A DNA stretch of 64,000 nucleotides from Clostridia bacterium (GTDB lineage Bacteria > Bacillota > DSM-521 > Neomoorellales > Neomoorellaceae). The stretch is taken from NCBI GenBank assembly GCA_030154265.1, contig JASKKH010000005.1:20519-84518 (forward strand). Direction: 5' to 3'. The position numbers and the translations under genes are program-made. Every line of letters starts with the position of its first letter. Position 1 is the stretch's first letter. The notes under the pieces were generated by a model. That model was not told the DNA's origin, searched no databases, and saw only the letters and a list, made by a program, of their open reading frames with translations. Positions 10,542 through 55,556 of this stretch are shown piece after piece.

Positions 10542-10592
10542 TATATAAACTAAAACCATAATTGCAAGCCCTTTACGCGAAGGTCATATCCA

Positions 10593-10752
10593 TTTACAGG
10601 CAGGTTTCCTGGCTCCTGAATCATCACTTTTTTTGCCTTCCCAGTATGCTTGTGCTACCAGTGGCTTATTAAAAAAAGCTCCTCAGTTACAGTGGCGCGA
10701 CCGCTCAGGCCTTTCACCTGATTCCCTTTTAACCATTGAGGCACCTGTATCT
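10593..10752 (-). promoter_or_regulatory. Cobalamin riboswitch
   Basis: Read on the minus strand, this stretch has the family landmarks in order: the 5' closing strand ACAGGTGCC, GGGAATCAGGTG, a CCTGAGCGGTCGCGCCACTGTAA core, GCCACTGG, GGGAAGGC, then the B12 box element GATGATTCAGGAGCCAGG and the 3' closing strand CCTGCCTGT. This is established as the adenosylcobalamin-sensing aptamer. Together with the downstream terminator it should repress the whole cob operon when cobalamin is plentiful. The 3' end and the antiterminator pairing were not folded. Confidence 0.96.
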
Positions 10753-10768
10753 TATTCATTTTATTATT

Positions 10769-11217: not shown

Positions 11218-12423
11218 TATATTCTCCAAGAAAATTTATTTTCCTTTGAACAATTTTTAGAATTTGAGCCTGAAAGCAAATTAACTGAACTTTTTAAGGT
11301 TCTAGATTTAGAACTATATGCTAAAATGTTGAGACCTTCATCACCCTAAGGAGCTAAAGGTTATAATAGAGTTGCTATTTTAAGGGCACTTTTAGCAGCA
11401 CCTTTAGAAGGTATATCTACTTTTACGGCTCTTAATTCCAGACTTCTATCAGATATTCGTTTTAAATATTATTGCGGTTTTAATTTAACTGACTCGGTTC
11501 CTTCCGTATCTGTATTTAGTCGAGTATTCCAACAAATAGTTGATAAAGATTTAGCTGAAAAATTATTTTATGACTTAGCAGAAAAATGTACTAAAGAAGG
11601 TTTGATTGATGGTTCTACTATAGCTATAGATAGTACAGCTATTGATGCATATGAGAAAAAACAATCTAAGAAAAAATGCAAGGATACGGAAAATGCTACC
11701 TGGGGTGCTAAGTTTGATAGCTTTAAGAATAAACTAACCTGGTTTGGTTACAAGCTACATTTAGCTGTTGATACTAAAAGTGAACTTCCTGTTGCTTTAG
11801 AAGTTACATCTGCTCATGTAAATGACGGTGATGTATTAATTCCATTAGTTAGAAATGTACTTAGTCAAGAATATCTCCATAAACTTAAATATGTTTTAGC
11901 AGATGCTGGATATGATCAAAAAAAGAATTATGAATACTGCCTAAATGCAGGGGCTCAAGCTATTATTCCTTTAAACTTACGAAATGAAAAAGAGCCACCT
12001 ACAGGCTATACATCTAATGGCACTCCTAAATGCTCTATGGGTTATGAAATGGTCTATTGGGGATGTGATAAAAAATATCTAAAATTTCGTTGTCCCCATG
12101 TATTAGGGAAAGTAGATTGCCCTTACGGTACACAATGGTGTTCATCATCAGATTATGGCATGGTAATCAAGGTAAGAGTAGCTGATGATCCAAGAAGATT
12201 TTCCATGCCCCATCGTGATAGCAAAGGTTGGAATGAACTTTACAATCAAATAACTTCGGTAGAAAGATGCAACTCTGGATTAAAAGATTATTTAACAGCT
12301 AACGATCTTCATGTAAGAGATATTCACAAAGTTACTACCTACTTATTTATTAATGCAATAGTATTACTAGCATCAGCACTTGCAGTTAAAAATGCTAAAA
12401 ATATTAAATCCAAAGCTGCATAA
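11215..12423 (+). pseudogene. DDE transposase with an in-frame stop
   Basis: One continuous frame encodes a transposase of about 402 residues, but codon 11347-11349 is TAA (context SSP-stop-GAKGYNR). Upstream of the stop lies an N-terminus of the type LQENLFSFEQFL; downstream lie a DUF772-like segment (RALLAAPLEGISTFTALNSR) and the catalytic core: Asp in STIAIDSTAI, Asp in LADAGYD and Glu in SVERCNSGLK. The fragment after the stop can still be read from TTG 11602, yielding 273 residues without the N-terminal domain. TTG 11215 is the most likely original start, since TGA precedes it at 11206. No frameshift was seen. It should be non-functional unless the stop is read through. Confidence 0.85.
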
Positions 12424-12635: not shown

Positions 12636-13484
12636 CTAAACCTTAATGCATTCCTTTATTTTTTCAGCTCTTCTTTTTAATTTAATGAACTCTTCCTCGC
12701 CAATACGAATAGAACCCAGATCTGCGTGGCTATTATCTTTTTGCCCATGAAAATCTGAACCACCTGTTATTATGAGATTATATTTATTGGCGATTTCCTT
12801 ATAGTGTTTGGTTGTTAACTCATCATGAAAAGGATAATAAACCTCAATACCTTGTAAACCTGCCGTGACTAAATCTGGTATAAGTTCATCAACTTTACTT
12901 AAACCTGGGTGAGCCAAAACAGGTACACCACCAACACTTAAAATTACCTCTACTGCTTTATAGGGTGAAATTTTATTTCGTGGAACATAAGCAGGTTTAC
13001 CTCGCTTAAGTAAAGTTGAGAAAGCAATTTCAAATGAAGGTACATACCCTTTGCGAACTAAAGTTGCTGCAATATGTGGTCTACCAATTGCTTCTCCATG
13101 TACCTCTTTCTCTACATCTTCTATGCTAATTTCAAAACCTAATTCTTGTAATCTTTTAATTATCCTTATATTCCGACGTTCTCTATCTTGACGCATTAAT
13201 TTTAAAAACAATAAGAATTTCTCGTTATGCCACTCTATGTAATAACCTAAAATGTGAATCTCTTTTTTTCCGTTTTCAGTACTTAGTTCTACCCCAGGTA
13301 CAATAGTTAAACCCATTTCAGGTCCAAGCTTTAATGCTTCTTCCAATCCAGAAATACTATCGTGGTCTGTAATACCCACAATTTCCAATCCTTTATCTCT
13401 AGCAAAGTATAATAGTTCAGAAGATGATAATAAACCGTCTGAAGCACTTGTATGAGTATGTAAATCTCCAATTAACGGCCTCAT
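12636..13484 (-). CDS. PHP-domain phosphoesterase (TrpH/YciV-like)
   Basis: The N-terminus has the PHP metal-binding signature GDLHTHTSASDGLLS at about residues 6-20, followed by GITDHDSISGLEEA, GVELSTE, GRPHIAATLV, VLAHPG and the C-terminal GGSDFHG, a full set of metal ligands. Relatives hydrolyse 3',5'-bisphosphates or the 5' ends of short RNA; the exact substrate here is unknown. ATG 13484 has TGGAG five bases upstream, better than the ATG at 13505, which has no ribosome binding site. About 282 residues. Confidence 0.88.
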   Translation of the reverse strand: MRPLIGDLHTHTSASDGLLSSSELLYFARDKGLEIVGITDHDSISGLEEALKLGPEMGLTIVPGVELSTENGKKEIHILGYYIEWHNEKFLLFLKLMRQDRERRNIRIIKRLQELGFEISIEDVEKEVHGEAIGRPHIAATLVRKGYVPSFEIAFSTLLKRGKPAYVPRNKISPYKAVEVILSVGGVPVLAHPGLSKVDELIPDLVTAGLQGIEVYYPFHDELTTKHYKEIANKYNLIITGGSDFHGQKDNSHADLGSIRIGEEEFIKLKRRAEKIKECIKV

Positions 13485-13522
13485 AACGACTCCATTCCAC
13501 TTCATTTATGTTTATTATAATC

Positions 13523-28807: not shown

Positions 28808-29686
28808 TTACAGAATACCTGCCTTCTTAAGCTCTTTAGCAATTATTTCCTTCTCAGTTTCATTTGCACCAACTAAAGGTAATCTTACCGGTCCAGCTGG
28901 TAACCCCATCATGTTTAAAGCTTCCTTCACTGGAACCGGGTTACTAGTAACAAATAAGGATTTAAAAATGGGGAAAAGTTCCTGATGTAATTTTGCTGCT
29001 TTTGTTATATCTCCATTTATGAAGGCCTTAATCATATCTTGCATTTTGTCCCCAACTACATGAGAAGCTACGCTAATAACACCATACCCTCCAACAGCCA
29101 TTGTAGGCAGCGTCATAGAATCGTCTCCTGCATAAAGATAAAAATCAGGAGGTGCTTGTTTTAATATATAAGTAACCTGATCAAGATCGCCACTAGATTC
29201 TTTAACTCCAATTATGTTATCAATTTCAGCCAAACGAAGAGTTGTAGCCGCCTCCATATTACATCCTGTTCGAGATGGAATATTATAAAGAATAATTGGT
29301 AACTTAGTCTCCGCAGCAATAGCTCTGAAATGTTGATATAAGCCTTCTTGTGAAGGACGGTTATAATAAGGTGCTACAAGTAATAAACCATCCACTCCAA
29401 TGACTTCTACTTCACGAGTTAATTCTATACTTGTTGCAGTGGAATTGGTTCCTGTTCCAGCAATTACAGCTGCTTTATCTCCAACTGCTTCTTTTACTGC
29501 TTTAAATAGTTGTAATTTTTCCTCATGTTCTAGGGTTGGTGTTTCCCCAGTAGTACCACATACAACCAAACTGTCACTTCCATGGTTGATCAGATAGGTT
29601 GCAATCTCTTTAGCTGCATCTAAATTTAACCTTCCTTCATTGGTAAAAGGAGTTACCATTGCTGTAAGAATTCTACCCCATTGCAT
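28808..29686 (-). CDS. dapA: 4-hydroxy-tetrahydrodipicolinate synthase
   Basis: DapA condenses pyruvate with aspartate semialdehyde, the first committed step to lysine, diaminopimelate and dipicolinate. The TIM-barrel motifs are present: GTTGETPTL, VIAGTGTNST, APYYNRPSQEGLYQHF, LYNIPSRTGCNM (Tyr and Arg of the active site) and GVKESSGDLDQ, with the Schiff-base Lys. 292 residues. GAGGTGAAAGCCC precedes the ATG. Last gene of the dapB-dpaA-dpaB-asd-dapA operon; dapG (aspartokinase), found here in Bacillus, is absent. Confidence 0.95.
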   Translation of the reverse strand: MQWGRILTAMVTPFTNEGRLNLDAAKEIATYLINHGSDSLVVCGTTGETPTLEHEEKLQLFKAVKEAVGDKAAVIAGTGTNSTATSIELTREVEVIGVDGLLLVAPYYNRPSQEGLYQHFRAIAAETKLPIILYNIPSRTGCNMEAATTLRLAEIDNIIGVKESSGDLDQVTYILKQAPPDFYLYAGDDSMTLPTMAVGGYGVISVASHVVGDKMQDMIKAFINGDITKAAKLHQELFPIFKSLFVTSNPVPVKEALNMMGLPAGPVRLPLVGANETEKEIIAKELKKAGIL

Positions 29687-33311: not shown

Positions 33312-33498
33312 CCATCGTGCAAGTAGCGCTCCACCAAAAGGTGACAATCCGATACCTATTCGACATTCGGACCAGGATAATGGTCTGGGCAAACCTTTAT
33401 CCTTCGGCAACGAACCCTTTCATACTGGATCACAGGATGCCCACCTCACCAGTATTACTCTTGTCCGATGCACCTCTACCACACTACACACGAGATGA
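33312..33498 (-). promoter_or_regulatory. Lysine riboswitch (L box)
   Basis: Minus-strand landmarks in the family order: GGTAGAGGTGC, AAGAGTAAT, GAAAGGG, TTGCCGAAGG, GGATTGTCAC and TGGAGCGCTACTTG, with the terminal helix formed by the outer strands. This is the established L-box aptamer; lysine binding favours the downstream terminator. The regulated operon is dapB-dpaA-dpaB-asd-dapA. Confidence 0.94.
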
Positions 33499-47389: not shown

Positions 47390-48487
47390 TTACTCCTCCC
47401 TCAACTCGCCATCAAAAGCTGTTATATCGACTTCATCATCCCAAGTATACCAATCACCAGCTTCCGACTCACTTTTTATATCGATTTTCCAATTAGTAAT
47501 TCTAGCTGCTAATCTAGCATTTTGTCCTTCTTTGCCAATGGCAAGGGAAAGCTGGTCATCTGGAACAATTACCTGGCTAATTTTATTTTCTTCGTCTACC
47601 ACAACATCCAATACCTTGGATGGACTTAAGGAATTAGCTATAAAAACAGCAGGATCAGAACTCCATTTTATAATATCGACTTTTTCGCCCCCAAGTTCTT
47701 GAACCACAGCTTGAACCCTAGAACCTTTGGGACCAACACAAGAACCAACAGGATCAACAGTTTCTTCTTTTGAATAAACAGCAATTTTAGAACGAGCTCC
47801 AGCTTCTCGAGCAACTGCTTTAATTTCAACAATGCCTTGATGAATTTCAGGAACCTCAAGTTCAAAAAGCCTTTTTATTAAACCTGGATGAGTGCGAGAA
47901 ACAAAAATCTGAGGCCCTTTATTTGTTTTACGAACTTCAAGAATATATGTTTTTATACGTTCACCTTGACGATAGTTCTCACCAGGAGTTTGCTCACCTG
48001 CAACAAGAACTGCTTCTGCTTTCCCAATATCAATAATTACATTTTTACCTTCATATCTTTGAATAACCCCGGTAACAATATCATTTTCCCTACTGATAAA
48101 CTCTTCGTATATTAAGTCTCTCTCAGCCTCACGAATACGCTGTACGACTACTTGTTTTGCTGTTTGAGCAGCTATACGCCCAAAATTTCGGGGAGTTACC
48201 TCTTTTTCTACTATATCTCCTATCTCATAGTTACTGTTATATTTTCTTGCTTCTTCTAAAGAAATTTCTAGTCTACTATCATTTACTTTTTCAACTACCT
48301 GGCGTTGAGTGAATACTTTTATTTCCCCTGTTTCTCGCTGGATATCAACGCGAACATTCTGTAAGGAATTAAAATTTTTTTTATATGCTGATATTAATGC
48401 GGCTTCAATTGCCTCCAATAAAACATCAACATCGATACCTTTCTCTCTTTCTAAGTCTCGTAAAGCTTGGATAAACTCACTGTTCAT
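47390..48487 (-). CDS. nusA: Transcription termination/antitermination factor NusA
   Basis: NusA binds RNA polymerase and influences pausing and termination. N-terminal RNAP-binding domain, an S1 domain (about residues 130-200) and two KH domains ([21 protein letters not shown] and [20 protein letters not shown]). 365 residues, without the acidic C-terminal repeats of enterobacteria, as usual in Firmicutes. The ATG overlaps the rimP stop (ATGA). Confidence 0.96.
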
Positions 48488-48966
48488 TCCTTAGGCCTCC
48501 TATCCTCTGCCTCATCAAACACCAGCTTAGCAGTAGTTATCTGTTCCAGGGGAATACCTAATAAACGACCTTCATCAAGCTGTATTTTTACCTGCCCTTC
48601 CTCATAACCAAGTAATAGGCCTTTAAAATTACGTTGACCTTCGATAGGCTTAAAAGTACGTACTTTAACTTTACTTCCCTTGAAGCGAATAAAATCTTTT
48701 TCTTTCTTTAATGGACGTTCTAGTCCCGGTGAGGATACTTCTAAATAATAACTATTAGGAATGGGATCCTTTTCATCCAATATTTCTCCAACAACTTTAC
48801 TGACTTTTTCACAGTCTTCTAAACCAATCCCTGTTGGTTGATCAATAAATAACCTCAATATGTAGCAATTACCTTCTTTAACATATTGTAAGTCAACTAA
48901 TTCATATCCCATATTAGATAAATCCAGAACAACCATTTCCTTTATCTTTTCTGTTAATTTACTCAA
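48484..48966 (-). CDS. rimP: Ribosome maturation factor RimP
   Basis: RimP promotes 30S assembly. Pattern [44 protein letters not shown], and [14 protein letters not shown], with a C-terminal Sm-like beta barrel. 160 residues. TTG start at 48966, with AGGAGG nine bases upstream. First gene of the nusA-infB operon. Confidence 0.94.
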
Positions 48967-49107: not shown

Positions 49108-52100
49108 TTATGAAAAAAAAGCTAGTTGGTCAGACTGTGGTAAACCTCTTAATGAACCGTGGTTCTCTAAAGCCTCAATAACCGTTCTACTTATCCGTGT
49201 CCGGTTTTGTAAATCTTCAATCGAAGTAAAAAATCTCTGTTCACGAGCCCGTACAATGGATTCTGCAGCAGCTTGCCCAAGACCAGATAATGCAACTAAA
49301 GGAGGTAATAATTCACCTTTTTTTATCTTAAACCTATTAACGTCAGAATTTTTTAAATCTATATGTTTCATGGTAATTCCCCGACAGTACATTTCCCTTG
49401 CTACCTCCAAGATTGTTAATACATTCTTGTCTCTGGCCGTGGCTTGATTGCCTTTTTTCTCTAAGTATTCAATTTGTTCTTGAATAACATTTTTACCTGC
49501 AGATACAATATCGGCATCAAACTCATCAGCTCTTATACTAAAAAAAGCAGCATAAAAAGCCTCAGGATAATAAACTTTGTAAAAAGCTATCCTAAAAGCC
49601 ATAGTAACATAAGCTACTGCATGGGCTTTGGGAAAAAGATACTTTATTTTCTTACAAGATTGGAGAAACCATTCAGGGACACCTGCCGCTATAATAGCTT
49701 CCTCATATTCTTTTTTTACACCTTTTCCTTTGCGAACATCCTCCATTGTTCGAAATGCAATATTTGTTTCTACCCCATGTTGAATTAAGAAATTCATAAT
49801 ATCATCGCGAGTAGAAATTGCTTCATCCAGACGGGCAGTACCATTTCTAATGAGATCCTGAGCATTATTTAACCAAACATCAGTGCCATGGGAAAAACCA
49901 CTAATACGCACTAGTTCCGCAAAGGTCTTTGGCTTAGTTTCCTCCAACATCTGCCGGACAAATCGAGTCCCAAATTCAGGAATACCAATAGTCCCGACCT
50001 TGGAATTGATGTCCTCGCTATTAACTCCAAGGGCTTTAACACTAGAAAATAGAGACATAGTACGTTCCTCATCAAGAGGAATTTCCCTAGCATTTACTCC
50101 AGTTAGGTCTTCTAACATTTTTATTACTGTCGGATCATCATGTCCAAGAAGGTCTAGTTTTACTAAACGACTACTAATTGAATGGTAATCAAAATGAGTC
50201 GTGATAATTTTGCTATCTACATCATCTGCAGGATGTTGTAAAGGTGTAAATTGATAAATATTAAGGCCTTTGGGAAGCACCATAACTCCGCCTGGATGTT
50301 GGCCTGTTGTTCTCTTAACACCAGTTATTCCTTTAACCAAACGATTAATTTCTGCCTGTCGCTTTTTAAGACCTTTTTCTTCCATGTATTTTTGGACAAA
50401 ACCATAAGCTGTTCGTTCAGCCAAGGTAGCTATAGTTCCTGCTCTAAAAACATGGTCCTTACCAAAAATCTCTTCGGTATAATTATGGGCACGAAATTGA
50501 TATTCTCCAGAGAAATTAAGATCTATATCCGGAACTTTATCACCTTTAAAGCCCAAAAAAACTTCAAAAGGAATATCATGCCCATCTTTAGTTAAATCTT
50601 GACCACATTTAACACATTTTTTATCTGGTAGATCTGCCCCACACTTAAAACTCCCATCCGTAATAAATTCACTGTGTTTACATACAGGACAACGATAATG
50701 GGGAGGAAGGGGATTAACCTCTGTAATTCCTGCCATAGTAGCAACTAAAGAAGAACCAACTGAACCTCTGGAACCCACTAAATAGCCATCTTCATTTGAC
50801 TTTTTTACAAGCTTATGTGCTATTAGATATAGCACAGCAAAACCGTGGCCAATAATTGACTGCATCTCTTTATCTAAACGAGTTTTTACTATCTGAGGTA
50901 GTGGATCACCATATAAATTATTAGCCATAGTTTTAACAATTTGGGTTAATTCTTTCTCTGCACCAGGAATTTCCGGTGGATAGAATCCATCAGGGATCGG
51001 TTTTATGTTATCTTCGATTTGCTGTGCCAATAGCCTAGGGTTATCAATTACAACTTTCCTAGCTATTTCTGGTTTCAGATAATTAAATTCTTCAAGCATT
51101 TCTTCAGTCGTTCTGTAAAAAAGAGGAGCTTGTACATCATCAAAGCCCTGACCTGCAAGCAAAATTTGTCGATAAATAGCATCTTCAGGATTTAAAAAAT
51201 GTACATCACAAGTTGCAACAACAGGTTTATTTAGTTTTTCCCCCAAAGCAATAATTTTCTTATTAATATCTTTTAAGGCATCACCATTAGGCACCTGACC
51301 CTTACGAATTAAAAATTCATTATTACCTACTGGCTGAATTTCTAAAAAGTCATAAAAAGATGCAATTTCTTTGAGGCGTTCTTCATCAGCACCTTTAAGG
51401 TAATTACGAATTAATTCTCCCGCTTCACAAGCTGTACCAAGTAAAAGGCCTTCACGGTATTTTTGTAATAAATCCCTAGGTATCCTCGGCCTACGATAAA
51501 AATAATTTATGTGAGCACAAGAGACTAAGTAATATAGATTCTTAAGGCCTTGTTGGTTTTTAGCTAGTAAAATAATATGATACGTCTGTTGATTATTATC
51601 ATTTTGTTCATCTTGATCAAAAAGGTAACCTTCTACTCCATAAATAATTTTAACTCCGTATTTACTACCCGCTTCAGCCGCAGCAGGAAAAGACTGGAGA
51701 TTGCCATGTTCTGTAATAGCTACTGCCTCATGTCCCCATAGCGCAGCCTGTTTTACTACTTCCGTTACATCGGTAACGGCATCCATAGCACTCATCTTGG
51801 TATGAAGGTGTAACTCAATTCTTTTTTCCGGAGCGTGATCCTCACGTCTAGGGTATTCTTTTTTGGAAACGGCCTCGGCTAATAATACCAATTCCTGGTC
51901 ATAACGGTCATATTGGACTGGCCCTTGTACCTGAACCCAATCTCCTACAGCCAGGCACCCATCAACCAAAGGGCCCTCACTTATGAAAGCTTTAACACTA
52001 ATAGAGTCAGTTCGATCACTTATATCAAAGCTTATCAGAAAACGACCAGATTTTAACTTGCGTACTTCATATTTTAAAACTTCCCCATGAACAGTAACTT

Positions 52101-52746
52101 TCTTTTCTTCTTCCTGAATTTGTTCTAAAAGATGTGAAATATTTTTATCAATTTTGCTACCAAGTAATAGCTCGGATTTTTTTGTATTTTTATTTTTACT
52201 ATTTGTTTCAGAAACTTCTTTTTGGACCCGTTCTAATTGCTTTGTTTCAAGCTCATTTGAAGCAGTAGTTATTTCCTGATGATAATTTATATCGGCAATT
52301 AACTCAACTTTAATATTGTATCCGTACTCTTTAAGTACCTTTTGTAGAACTATGTCTGCATTACAACTCTTCAATGTCTCTATAGCTAGTGAAACAGGCA
52401 AAATTAGTTGTAGTGTATTATTGTTAATTTCTAGTCTAGCACTTGAAAGCCAAGCAGAACTTCCATTTCCTAAAATATATGAAACTTTATTTAAAATAAT
52501 AGATTTATTATCTCTACAAAATGAAACTAAATCAGTTTGATTATTCAACTTTTTATTATTTTTAATCTCAAATGAAATACCAGGGAATTTTTCTTTTAGG
52601 AATTGATAACAATTATTTATCTCTTCCGAAGTTAAATCATTAGAAGAAAGCCATATATAACATTTTCTGACTTTCCGTAAAACTTCAACTTTCTCAATTA
52701 CCCCTCTTTTCATTAACTGTTGCCAAAGTTCTTCTTTTACATCCAT
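49108..52746 (-). CDS. polC: DNA polymerase III alpha subunit PolC, lacking the 3'-5' exonuclease domain
   Basis: PolC is the Gram-positive replicative polymerase. Domains seen: N-terminal region (about 1-200), OB fold (about 215-300), PHP domain with IELHLHTKMSAMDA (about 311-324) and AITEHGN, then GVEGYLFD (370-377), a short linker, and YHIILLAKNQQGLKNLYYLV. Palm/fingers follow with a four-Cys zinc site (CPVCKH ... CVKCGQ), DKVPDIDLNFSGEYQ with catalytic Asp residues, GVKRTTGQHPGGVMV and helix-hairpin-helix at the C-terminus. In Bacillus PolC a DEDD exonuclease of about 200-225 residues lies between the two PHP halves; here it is absent in frame, and the length of 1212 against about 1437 equals that loss. 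ATG 52746 has GAGGTTGAG upstream. Confidence 0.95.
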   Translation of the reverse strand: MDVKEELWQQLMKRGVIEKVEVLRKVRKCYIWLSSNDLTSEEINNCYQFLKEKFPGISFEIKNNKKLNNQTDLVSFCRDNKSIILNKVSYILGNGSSAWLSSARLEINNNTLQLILPVSLAIETLKSCNADIVLQKVLKEYGYNIKVELIADINYHQEITTASNELETKQLERVQKEVSETNSKNKNTKKSELLLGSKIDKNISHLLEQIQEEEKKVTVHGEVLKYEVRKLKSGRFLISFDISDRTDSISVKAFISEGPLVDGCLAVGDWVQVQGPVQYDRYDQELVLLAEAVSKKEYPRREDHAPEKRIELHLHTKMSAMDAVTDVTEVVKQAALWGHEAVAITEHGNLQSFPAAAEAGSKYGVKIIYGVEGYLFDQDEQNDNNQQTYHIILLAKNQQGLKNLYYLVSCAHINYFYRRPRIPRDLLQKYREGLLLGTACEAGELIRNYLKGADEERLKEIASFYDFLEIQPVGNNEFLIRKGQVPNGDALKDINKKIIALGEKLNKPVVATCDVHFLNPEDAIYRQILLAGQGFDDVQAPLFYRTTEEMLEEFNYLKPEIARKVVIDNPRLLAQQIEDNIKPIPDGFYPPEIPGAEKELTQIVKTMANNLYGDPLPQIVKTRLDKEMQSIIGHGFAVLYLIAHKLVKKSNEDGYLVGSRGSVGSSLVATMAGITEVNPLPPHYRCPVCKHSEFITDGSFKCGADLPDKKCVKCGQDLTKDGHDIPFEVFLGFKGDKVPDIDLNFSGEYQFRAHNYTEEIFGKDHVFRAGTIATLAERTAYGFVQKYMEEKGLKKRQAEINRLVKGITGVKRTTGQHPGGVMVLPKGLNIYQFTPLQHPADDVDSKIITTHFDYHSISSRLVKLDLLGHDDPTVIKMLEDLTGVNAREIPLDEERTMSLFSSVKALGVNSEDINSKVGTIGIPEFGTRFVRQMLEETKPKTFAELVRISGFSHGTDVWLNNAQDLIRNGTARLDEAISTRDDIMNFLIQHGVETNIAFRTMEDVRKGKGVKKEYEEAIIAAGVPEWFLQSCKKIKYLFPKAHAVAYVTMAFRIAFYKVYYPEAFYAAFFSIRADEFDADIVSAGKNVIQEQIEYLEKKGNQATARDKNVLTILEVAREMYCRGITMKHIDLKNSDVNRFKIKKGELLPPLVALSGLGQAAAESIVRAREQRFFTSIEDLQNRTRISRTVIEALENHGSLRGLPQSDQLAFFS

Positions 52747-52759
52747 AAACGCTCAACCT

Positions 52760-54481
52760 CTATTTATACTTTTCCATCTCCCTGATAATCATCTCTTTTA
52801 CATACGAAGCTAATCCGTCTAAAGTTACAGATGTTTCCTTATCTTCGTTACGCCATTTTAAATCAACTGTACCTTGAGTTACTGTCTTTTTACCAACTGT
52901 TAACCGAAGTGGATACCCAATAAGATCTGCCTCTACAAATTTTTGTCCTGCTCTTTCATTACGATCATCAAATATTACCTCTATACCACTAGCACTTAAT
53001 TCTTTATACAAGTTTTCAGCAATTGTACGCTGCTCACTATCTTTATAAGAAGCTAGTATAATAATGACTTGAAACGGAGCTATACTTAAAGGCCAAATAA
53101 TACCATTGTCGTCATGGTGCTGTTCTACTGCAGCAGCCATGGTACGGCTGACACCAATTCCATAACACCCCATGACTATAGGACATTCCTTACCTTGAGG
53201 ATCAGTATAATAAGCACCTAATGCCTTACTGTATTTGGTGCCTAATTGGAAAACTTGTCCAACCTCGATGCCCCTAGCCTGGGATAAAACCGAACCACAC
53301 TGGGGACAAGGATCTCCAGCCTCTACTTGACGCAAATCAAATATCTCATTAATTTCAAAATCTCTACCTGGATTAACATTTATATAATGATAACCTTCTT
53401 TATTAGCTCCGACTATTCCATTGACCATATAAGGTATTTCAAGATCAGCATAAAAAGTTATTCCTTCCAATCCAACCGGACCCACATATCCTATCGGAGC
53501 TCCCGTTATTTTCTTAACCTTTTCAGCGTCAGCCAACACAAGATGCTTACAACCAAGGTGATTTTGTAATTTTATTTCGTTAAGTTCACGATCACCACGA
53601 ACCAAAACAGCTATAATCTGATTATCTGCTTCATAAAAAATCGTCTTAATGAGCTTGTCCGAAGTTATGTTAAGAAAAGTACTTACTTCCTTAACTGTCT
53701 TCTTACCCGGTGTAGCTATCTCTTCTAAAGGAGCTGGACTTTCTGTAATTTCTTTTGGTATTGCCTTACTAACAGCAATCTCGACATTTGCTGCATAATC
53801 ACAATCATTGCAATATACCAATACGGCTTCTCCAGTTTCAGCTAAGGCCATAAATTCATGGCTGTAGTTACCACCGATTGCTCCACTATCTGCTTCTACA
53901 GGACGAAATTCTAAACCACAACGACGAAAAACATTCTTATAAGCTTCATACATTTTAATATAACTTTCATTCAAACCTTCCTGGTCTTTATCAAATGAAT
54001 AGAGATCTTTCATTATAAATTCTCGACCTCTTAAAAGCCCAAACCTGGGTCTTCGTTCATCACGGTATTTATTTTGAATTTGATATAAAAGTAGTGGAAG
54101 TTGTTTGTATGAATTTATTTCATTACGTACTAGTAAAGTAATAATTTCTTCATGGGTAGGCCCTAAACAAAAATCACGTTGATGACGATCCTTAAGCCTG
54201 AACATTTCTTCACCATAAACATCCCAACGGCCACTTTCCTTCCATAATTCTGCCGTTTGGATGATAGGTAACAACAATTCTTGGCCACCAGCACGATCCA
54301 TTTCTTCTCTAATAATTCTTTCCAGTTTGGCTAAAACACGCCGAGCTAATGGTAAGTATGTATATATACCCGCAGCTGCTTTACGAATAAACCCTGCCCT
54401 TAAAAGTAATTTATGACTAATTATATCAGCCTCAGCCGGAGTTTCTCTTAATGTCGGTATTAAAAACTCACTTGCTCTCAT
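52760..54481 (-). CDS. proS: Prolyl-tRNA synthetase
   Basis: Charges tRNA-Pro. Class II motifs: motif 1 region near [23 protein letters not shown], motif 2 [24 protein letters not shown], motif 3 near [14 protein letters not shown]. An editing domain (about residues 220-390) lies between motifs 2 and 3 as in the bacterial type, with the anticodon-binding domain at the C-terminus. 573 residues from ATG 54481, preceded by GAGGGGGAAAAAG. The start overlaps the ispG end by 14 bp. Confidence 0.96.
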
Positions 54482-55556
54482 CTTTTTCCCCCTCTTCTGC
54501 AACTAAGCATTTGACTTCGTCTATTAAAACTTGTGCCATATCTTTTTGTGACACCTTCCGAACAGGCTTGCCATGGCGAAAAAGTAACCCGAAACCTGGG
54601 CCACCAGCAATACCAACATCAGCCTGTCGAGCCTCTCCAGGACCATTTACAGCACAACCCATAACAGCAACCTTTAGCGGTTTTTTAATTCCCTCGAGAC
54701 CAGCTTTAACTTTATCTACTACTTGTTCAAGCTCTACCTGACAACGCCCACAAGTAGGACAGGAAATTATCTCAACCCCATGCTTACGTAAACCTAAGAA
54801 ACGCAAAATTGAGAATCCAACTTTTACTTCCTCTACTGGATCCCCAGTTAGAGAAACGCGAATTGTATCACCTATGCCTTCATTTAGTAATATACCTATA
54901 CCAATGGCTGATTTTACAACTCCATCTAACCCACGGCCAGCTTCTGTTACCCCTAAATGCAAAGGATAATTGATTTTTTTTGCTAATAACCTATAGGCAG
55001 ATAACATCAAGGGTACTTCAGAAGCCTTTAAAGAAACCTTTATGTTATAAAAATCTTTTTCCTCTAATAGGCGAATATGTTTCATGGCACTCTCTACCAT
55101 GGCTTCCGCAGTTACTCCACCATGGGATGCTAAAACTTCTTTTTCCAATGAACCAGCATTTACACCAATACGTATGGGTACATTTCGAGCATTAGCTTCT
55201 CTGGCCACAATGCGTACTCGTTCTGGACCTCCAATATTACCCGGGTTTAATCGTAAGCCGTCAATCCCTGCTTCAAGGACCTTTAAAGCCAAGCGATAGT
55301 CAAAATGAATATCCGCTATTAGAGGTATATCAACCATTTTCTTTATCTTTTCAACAGCCTCTGCAGCTTCTTGATCGACAACAGCCACCCTAACAATTTC
55401 ACAACCCGCAGCTTTTAAGCGCCTAATTTGATCCACAGTTGCTTTAATATCCCGAGTATCAGTGTTAGTCATGGATTGAACTGATATAGGAGCTCCGTCA
55501 CCTATGGCCACTTTCCCAACCCATATTCGCCGGGTAGCATGACGCTTACTAACCAT
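54468..55556 (-). CDS. ispG: 4-hydroxy-3-methylbut-2-en-1-yl diphosphate synthase (flavodoxin/ferredoxin)
   Basis: IspG makes HMBPP in the MEP isoprenoid pathway using a [4Fe-4S] cluster and two electrons. TIM-barrel with [17 protein letters not shown] start, [25 protein letters not shown]-terminal iron-sulfur domain with ISCPTCGRC and [13 protein letters not shown]. 362 residues. GAGGTGACAT precedes the ATG. Electron donor is probably a ferredoxin; a small ferredoxin gene lies further upstream in this cluster. Confidence 0.96.

Follow-up and report, generated by a model that had tools for sequence, protein, structure and literature searches.

An exonuclease-free PolC with a complete PHP metal site in a clostridial relative of Neomoorella

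A polC gene without the exonuclease insertion

The window analyzed here is a 64,000-nucleotide stretch of the clostridial contig JASKKH010000005.1, and it carries on its minus strand the gene order ispG-proS-polC-rimP-nusA, which is identical in the family genome G006. The 1212-residue product of polC scores well above the cut-offs of two curated equivalog models for the family (NF001688, 1570.7 bits against 873; TIGR01405, 1435.4 bits against 1043.45), and by these models the enzyme is classed as a PolC-type DNA polymerase III. The genes and protein features are as follows.

54468..55556, minus strand: upstream neighbor and synteny marker, from the ORF list, which we take to be ispG
52760..54502, minus strand: upstream neighbor, prolyl-tRNA synthetase, to which its Pfam domains fit and which we take to be proS
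49108..52746, minus strand: polC, PolC-type DNA polymerase III alpha without the exonuclease (Exo) insertion (1212-residue ORF, PolC family models)
51874..52098, minus strand: OB fold, N-terminal to PHP (residues 217-291; PF01336, 28.7 bits against a cut-off of 27)
51619..51816, minus strand: first half of PHP (residues 311-376; ligands H313, H315, D322, H347, E372)
51583..51618, minus strand: 12-residue linker DQDEQNDNNQQT (residues 377-388), replacing 193-214 residues of Exo-bearing PolCs
51109..51582, minus strand: second half of PHP (residues 389 to about 546, the Pfam match stopping at 465; ligands H390, C440, D514, H516)
50521..50529, minus strand: palm catalytic aspartates D740 and D742 in PDIDLNF, from sequence and alignment
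49114..49128, minus strand: C-terminal clamp-binding-like motif QLAFF (residues 1207-1211)
48484..48966, minus strand: rimP, downstream neighbor, by Pfam
47390..48487, minus strand: nusA, downstream neighbor, by Pfam

Pfam matches cover the OB fold (217-291), PHP (311-465), the Pol3 core (599-868), the fingers (871-1013) and HhH (1123-1204), and the protein has the PolC layout of an OB fold before PHP, a Pol3 core with the palm aspartates and a C-terminal HhH. Four conserved cysteines, which presumably have a zinc role, are also retained. Residues 205-1212, modeled with AlphaFold (mean pLDDT 85, pTM 0.73, 32 sequences), superpose on the Geobacillus PolC structure 3f2b with TM scores of 0.93/0.95 and an rmsd of 2.4 over 1015 columns. 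At the N-terminus, the domain model PF11490 reaches 20.1 bits, under its cut-off of 26.3; this domain was unassignable in 7% in a 2013 survey (PMC3919608), which also gives QL[S/D]LF as the clamp-binding consensus.

The sequence-only reading had claimed that this PolC lacks its exonuclease domain while the PHP halves, metal site and palm remain intact, and both parts hold. No exonuclease family, RNase_T/DEDD included, is matched by Pfam at E<=0.001 anywhere in the 1212 residues, which also covers a DEDD motif elsewhere in the protein, named in that reading as evidence against it. GVEGYLFD does occupy residues 370-377, and YH (389-390) stands directly after a linker that is indeed short, although its length is 12 residues rather than about 11. 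The linker separates PHP metal ligand five (E372) from ligand six (H390). Mapping the gap against other PolCs, as that reading had advised, locates it precisely: the match to the full-length PolC chain 9qpc (1474 residues) breaks exactly at the linker (query 379/386, chain 432/637), leaving about 200 residues of the chain unmatched, while the match to 3f2b, a structure without Exo, reads through with the linker at the Exo place. All nine ligands and both palm aspartates are present, and the palm pair is kept in 373/373 alignment rows.

The segment at this site falls into separate length classes (7-22 residues in 230 sequences, 79 in one and 193-214 in 103) among 334 full-coverage PolCs, which are distinct sequences rather than distinct species (120 protein matches, 74 from named contigs and 140 from further genomes) and lean towards the query because the 120 are the best-listed of 7979 matches. 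Six partial PolCs, exact duplicates and the loci L113-L134 and L154-L183, which are pieces fetched around other matches and come in several cases from genes counted elsewhere, were excluded beforehand. The split leaves chance no issue. The DEDDh exonuclease inserted in PHP, a hallmark of PolC (PMC3919608), is absent from the window enzyme, which is a complete PolC whose PHP halves are joined through 12 residues.

Relatives, frequency and history of the exonuclease domain

Among the best 120 of 7979 database matches, the closest proteins listed are Neomoorella/Moorella PolCs at 71% identity. The PolCs of Neomoorella thermoacetica and Thermanaeromonas, 1200-1214 residues long, align over 99-100% of the query at 71% and 65-66% identity; they likewise have no Exo and differ from the window enzyme by sequence divergence. 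In this group, family genomes have RNase_T in frames of 921-971 residues, whereas the window genome has it in a stand-alone protein of 205. Within the window's family, PolC occurs in 15 of 18 genomes, always in a frame of 1200-1266 residues with an unbroken match at the site, and four of the 15 (G006, G007, G011, G012) are single-contig listings. Two of the remaining genomes, G001 and G002, have no polC, and the third, G017, is only 58% complete. Codon differences from the G006 gene, at 0.25/0.14/0.70 for positions 1/2/3 over 1209 codons, show a third-position bias that looks like purifying selection. Relatives thus share the gap, and the suggestion of a clean domain absence rather than a broken gene is borne out.

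To place the enzyme in its phylum we drew 299 genomes at least 90% complete, with PolC present at 1e-50 in 213 and absent from 86. Match span and frame length, taken together with an RNase_T search of the same draw, class 104 of the 213 as Exo-less and 85 as Exo-bearing and leave 24 unclassed, so that 104/189 classifiable genomes have no Exo; the class was confirmed on sequence for 99/104 and 52/85, respectively, and contradicted for none. Across the window genome and 40 relatives, 23 have a PolC without Exo, five have one with it and 13 have no PolC-level match.

This architecture is known. Timinskas et al. (PMC3919608) treat Exo as a hallmark of PolC yet still count Exo-less forms as PolC; their survey gives 6% of PolCs without Exo, in Clostridia and Negativicutes save for one extra Thermotogae copy, and in tabulated form 16% among systems with PolC and DnaE1. 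The window protein combines a PolC core and PHP without Exo, and its clostridial host, placed via relatives, also has DnaE1; like the 2013 variant it has OB, PHP, Pol3 and HhH, and nothing essential differs from the published description except frequency, 6% (16% with DnaE1) there against 104/189 classifiable genomes here. The absence of Exo is therefore no novelty: the window PolC adds one more example to a published variant and does not define a new enzyme type. A literature search confined mostly to open-access journals brought up no article dedicated to PolCs without Exo. What our analysis adds is the phylum frequency, the counts of ligand retention, the RNase_T-free genomes, the number of changes and the family members without polC.

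Trees were built from core columns that exclude the insert, with 215 rows reduced to 172 and then to 88, and they require Exo to have changed state repeatedly: at least six times with FastTree on 172 rows and, on the best tree, eight times with a quick IQ-TREE run on 88, whose well-supported branches force at least three changes. Forcing the 38 Exo-bearing rows into a single clade lowers the log-likelihood by 194, and the AU test rejects it (p 0.0006). Because Exo identity tracks core identity (66 rows giving 2145 pairs, r 0.75), recent re-acquisition is not indicated; for two nested Exo-bearing clades, where recent regain by transfer was considered and set aside, the top residuals to other lineages lie 2.2 and 1.1 standard deviations off, and other pairs reach 2.2 as well. 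Repeated loss is the simpler and preferred reading of an unrooted tree on which direction is inferred, and the window's own lineage would then have lost the domain.

The 1399-residue PolC frame L042 (RUG14239, contig CADBRR010000016.1), a single metagenome-derived sequence counted as Exo-bearing by length, has a 193-residue segment that lost five of eight D/E/H positions (nearly) invariant in other Exo domains, and it keeps all nine PHP ligands. It looks like a dead exonuclease decaying in place, contrary to a general statement in PMC12926913.

Three further observations concern the same site or tree. The 1372-residue PolC frame of genome G085 carries the 79-residue insert, a low-complexity stretch rich in Ala, Asp, Glu and Pro at the Exo site, and this genome has no RNase_T match at 1e-6. 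In family f51, the Exo-bearing PolCs of G071 and G230 lie far in the tree from the Exo-less ones of G107 and G310 and adjoin a Lachnospiraceae-like PolC, pointing to replacement by transfer or to contamination. Two Exo-less PolCs, from an uncultured bacterium (L062) and from candidate division FCPU426 (L064), lie near the Thermotogae/Fusobacteria end, far from the clostridial ones.

The PHP site as candidate proofreader, and competing readings

The nine-ligand pattern HHDHEH[C/H]DH of PHP-type proofreading replicases is found by sequence alignment in the window PolC, where H313 through H516 of the feature list make up all nine predicted ligands. The complete set HHDHEHCDH occurs in 230/230 Exo-less and 91/103 Exo-bearing full-coverage PolCs, as well as in the one PolC with a 79-residue insert. 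In both distinct PolC sequences with a solved structure, NVH stands in place of the DVH of the window enzyme, with N for D514. According to PMC5636811, the Geobacillus kaustophilus (Gka) PolC has one PHP residue mutated and shows no exonuclease activity, and the nine-ligand PHP site of Mycobacterium tuberculosis (Mtb) DnaE1 is a proofreading exonuclease. The Exo insertion, by the same source, falls in a PHP loop that lines the groove to the PHP site of Mtb DnaE1 and measures 29 residues there, 18 in Taq and nine in E. coli; the equivalent segment of the window PolC has 12.

These two enzymes frame the comparison. The Gka structure 3f2b, solved without Exo, has the same fold as the window PolC with a linker at the Exo place, but the natural Gka enzyme carries Exo and a broken PHP set (PMC5636811), and the window PolC has neither. 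Mtb DnaE1, which shares the fold family of the window enzyme (entry 7pu7, going by the title), likewise combines a nine-ligand PHP with a C-family replicase lacking a fused DEDDh domain; it differs in being of DnaE type, with measured exonuclease activity and a 29-residue loop, whereas the window enzyme is a PolC known from sequence with 12 residues. We propose, at a probability of roughly 0.6, that the PHP domain of the window PolC is its proofreader, alongside a DnaE1 in which all nine ligands are likewise present. In this model, the nine PolC ligands would bind a three-zinc center resembling the one in Mycobacterium DnaE1, the now-short loop would let a mispaired primer end through to that center, and PolC would work beside a DnaE1 with its own complete PHP site, whose presence would allow PolC, and earlier its Exo domain, to be lost in the lineage. 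An Exo-less PolC with a full PHP site from a relative of the thermophile Neomoorella offers a clean natural enzyme for a test of PHP proofreading in PolC; the Gka PolC discussed in the literature has a broken ligand set and an Exo domain.

Retention of the ligands is not specific to Exo loss, since they are also intact in most Exo-bearing PolCs. The ligand set changes three times on the 172-row tree, and every broken row is Exo-bearing; since kin sequences are not independent and PHP differs in only one or two of five independent pairs, the link between PHP and Exo falls short of significance, and the difference between the two classes is suggestive, in the expected direction. No core column tracks Exo state convincingly, the best reaching 0.29 bits.

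The most serious competitor holds that PolC plays a secondary part and can do without proofreading, with DnaE1 and its own PHP site copying most of the chromosome while PolC is dismantled, first the domain and then the gene. The DnaE1 of the window genome, on contig C50, reads HHDHEHCDH by eye and has all nine PHP residues. In the family genome G001 (100% complete) the order is ispG-proS-rimP-nusA, proS and rimP standing about 160 bp apart, and in G002 (98% complete) proS-rimP-nusA likewise runs without polC; tblastn of PolC at 1e-3 finds no remnant in either stretch, and genome-wide PolC searches of both return DnaE-level matches only. These two genomes presumably lost polC, as opposed to never having had it. 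A genome of the same taxonomic order (G020) has a different gene in the polC slot. That close relatives live without polC supports a DnaE1 able to copy the whole chromosome there, and since the window genome has a DnaE1 with a full PHP site and two family members are polC-less, PolC need not be the sole or main replicase. The sequence-only reading that the replicase would need another proofreader, DnaQ-like or PHP, was apt in its two alternatives and too strict in its premise. The 86 of 299 phylum-draw genomes without PolC at 1e-50, the mostly erased acidic and histidine positions of L042 and the question raised by Timinskas et al. of whether DnaE1 does normal replication in such genomes (PMC3919608) point the same way. 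Set against this, all 230 Exo-less PolCs keep nine ligands and palm aspartates, unlike genes under relaxed constraint, the codon differences from the G006 gene concentrate at third positions, and polC loss in G001 and G002 is itself an inferred direction; we regard a secondary PolC as unlikely, though with appreciable weight. Family and phylum form a natural series of PolC without Exo, no PolC and, in other families, PolC with Exo, in which the purpose of PolC in cells that already have DnaE1 can be asked.

A second reading keeps the nine ligands for fold stability or pyrophosphate hydrolysis, with no proofreading by PolC. It would account for intact ligands in 91/103 Exo-bearing PolCs, for the loss of expression of the E73Q mutant of Mtb DnaE1 (PMC5636811) and for a report that the PHP of E. 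coli DnaE acts as a pyrophosphatase (PMC4822814). It sits poorly with the proofreading exonuclease of the nine-ligand Mtb DnaE1 PHP (PMC5636811) and with the three ligand-set changes on the PolC trees, all in Exo-bearing rows, which imply that the fold tolerates substitutions, and we consider it distinctly improbable.

Less probable again is proofreading in trans by a separate DEDDh exonuclease. The search for dnaQ and dnaE genes proposed earlier returned, besides DnaE1, a single RNase_T match in the window genome, a stand-alone 205-residue DEDDh protein on contig C48. It has FIDVETTG, HNAGFD and HRALDD stretches and 252 protein matches, itself included, and some relatives bear the source name DNA polymerase III subunit epsilon. 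It nevertheless stays short of the curated threshold in each of the 23 models matched, dnaQ/epsilon included (TIGR00573, 29.7 against 71.5 bits; the best, PRK09182, 161.8 against 207). In the other 17 family genomes, dnaQ-model matches lie in 921-971-residue frames (16 genomes) or in two short frames on one contig (G002); the long frame of G006 is DinG-type on scanning, and by length the others probably are too. A stand-alone DEDDh protein is thus missing from 16 of 17 family mates, the 17th having two short pieces, so reliance on the 205-residue protein is not family-wide and a trans proofreader is rejected as its general solution. Weak by models and missing in family mates, a stand-alone DEDDh protein is a poorer candidate than PHP.

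The wider counts come from genome-wide searches covering RNase_T, one DEDD family. Stand-alone RNase_T (frames under 500 residues) is missing in 17/23 Exo-less and 2/5 Exo-bearing genomes among the window genome and 40 relatives, small counts that give no sign of compensation for Exo loss. In the phylum draw, 31/104 Exo-less genomes, all 31 confirmed as such on sequence, have no RNase_T match at E<=1e-6; this absence is not special to Exo-less PolC, since 39/86 PolC-less genomes likewise have none. Finally, loss of about 600 bp in assembly or sequencing, for which we found no support beyond the window's origin in a 70-contig draft, can be discarded, as the form recurs in all 15 PolC-bearing family genomes, including four listed as one contig, and in 71% identical database proteins of 1213-1230 residues.

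A wider reading and other features of the window

Extended beyond the window, PHP proofreading leads to a more tentative proposal, to which we give slightly less than even odds: a whole branch of Bacillota may depend at its replication fork solely on PHP proofreading of the zinc type, in both PolC and DnaE1, with Exo dropped repeatedly and PolC itself on the way out. About a third of such genomes show no RNase_T-type exonuclease, and polC is already missing from its operon in two members of the window's family.

The window genome has nine PHP matches in all, one of them a stand-alone 289-residue PHP protein at 12636-13505 on the minus strand of the window. A 610-residue frame with a PHP domain on contig C15 may, judging by its length, be PolX. 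Elsewhere in the window, a transposase frame (DDE_Tnp_1, 11602-12423, plus strand) lies on the strand opposite to its neighbors, near a cobalamin riboswitch (10582-10763, minus strand), and a lysine riboswitch (33316-33486, minus strand, 118 bits) lies a few kb away from a gene for dihydrodipicolinate synthase (28808-29686).
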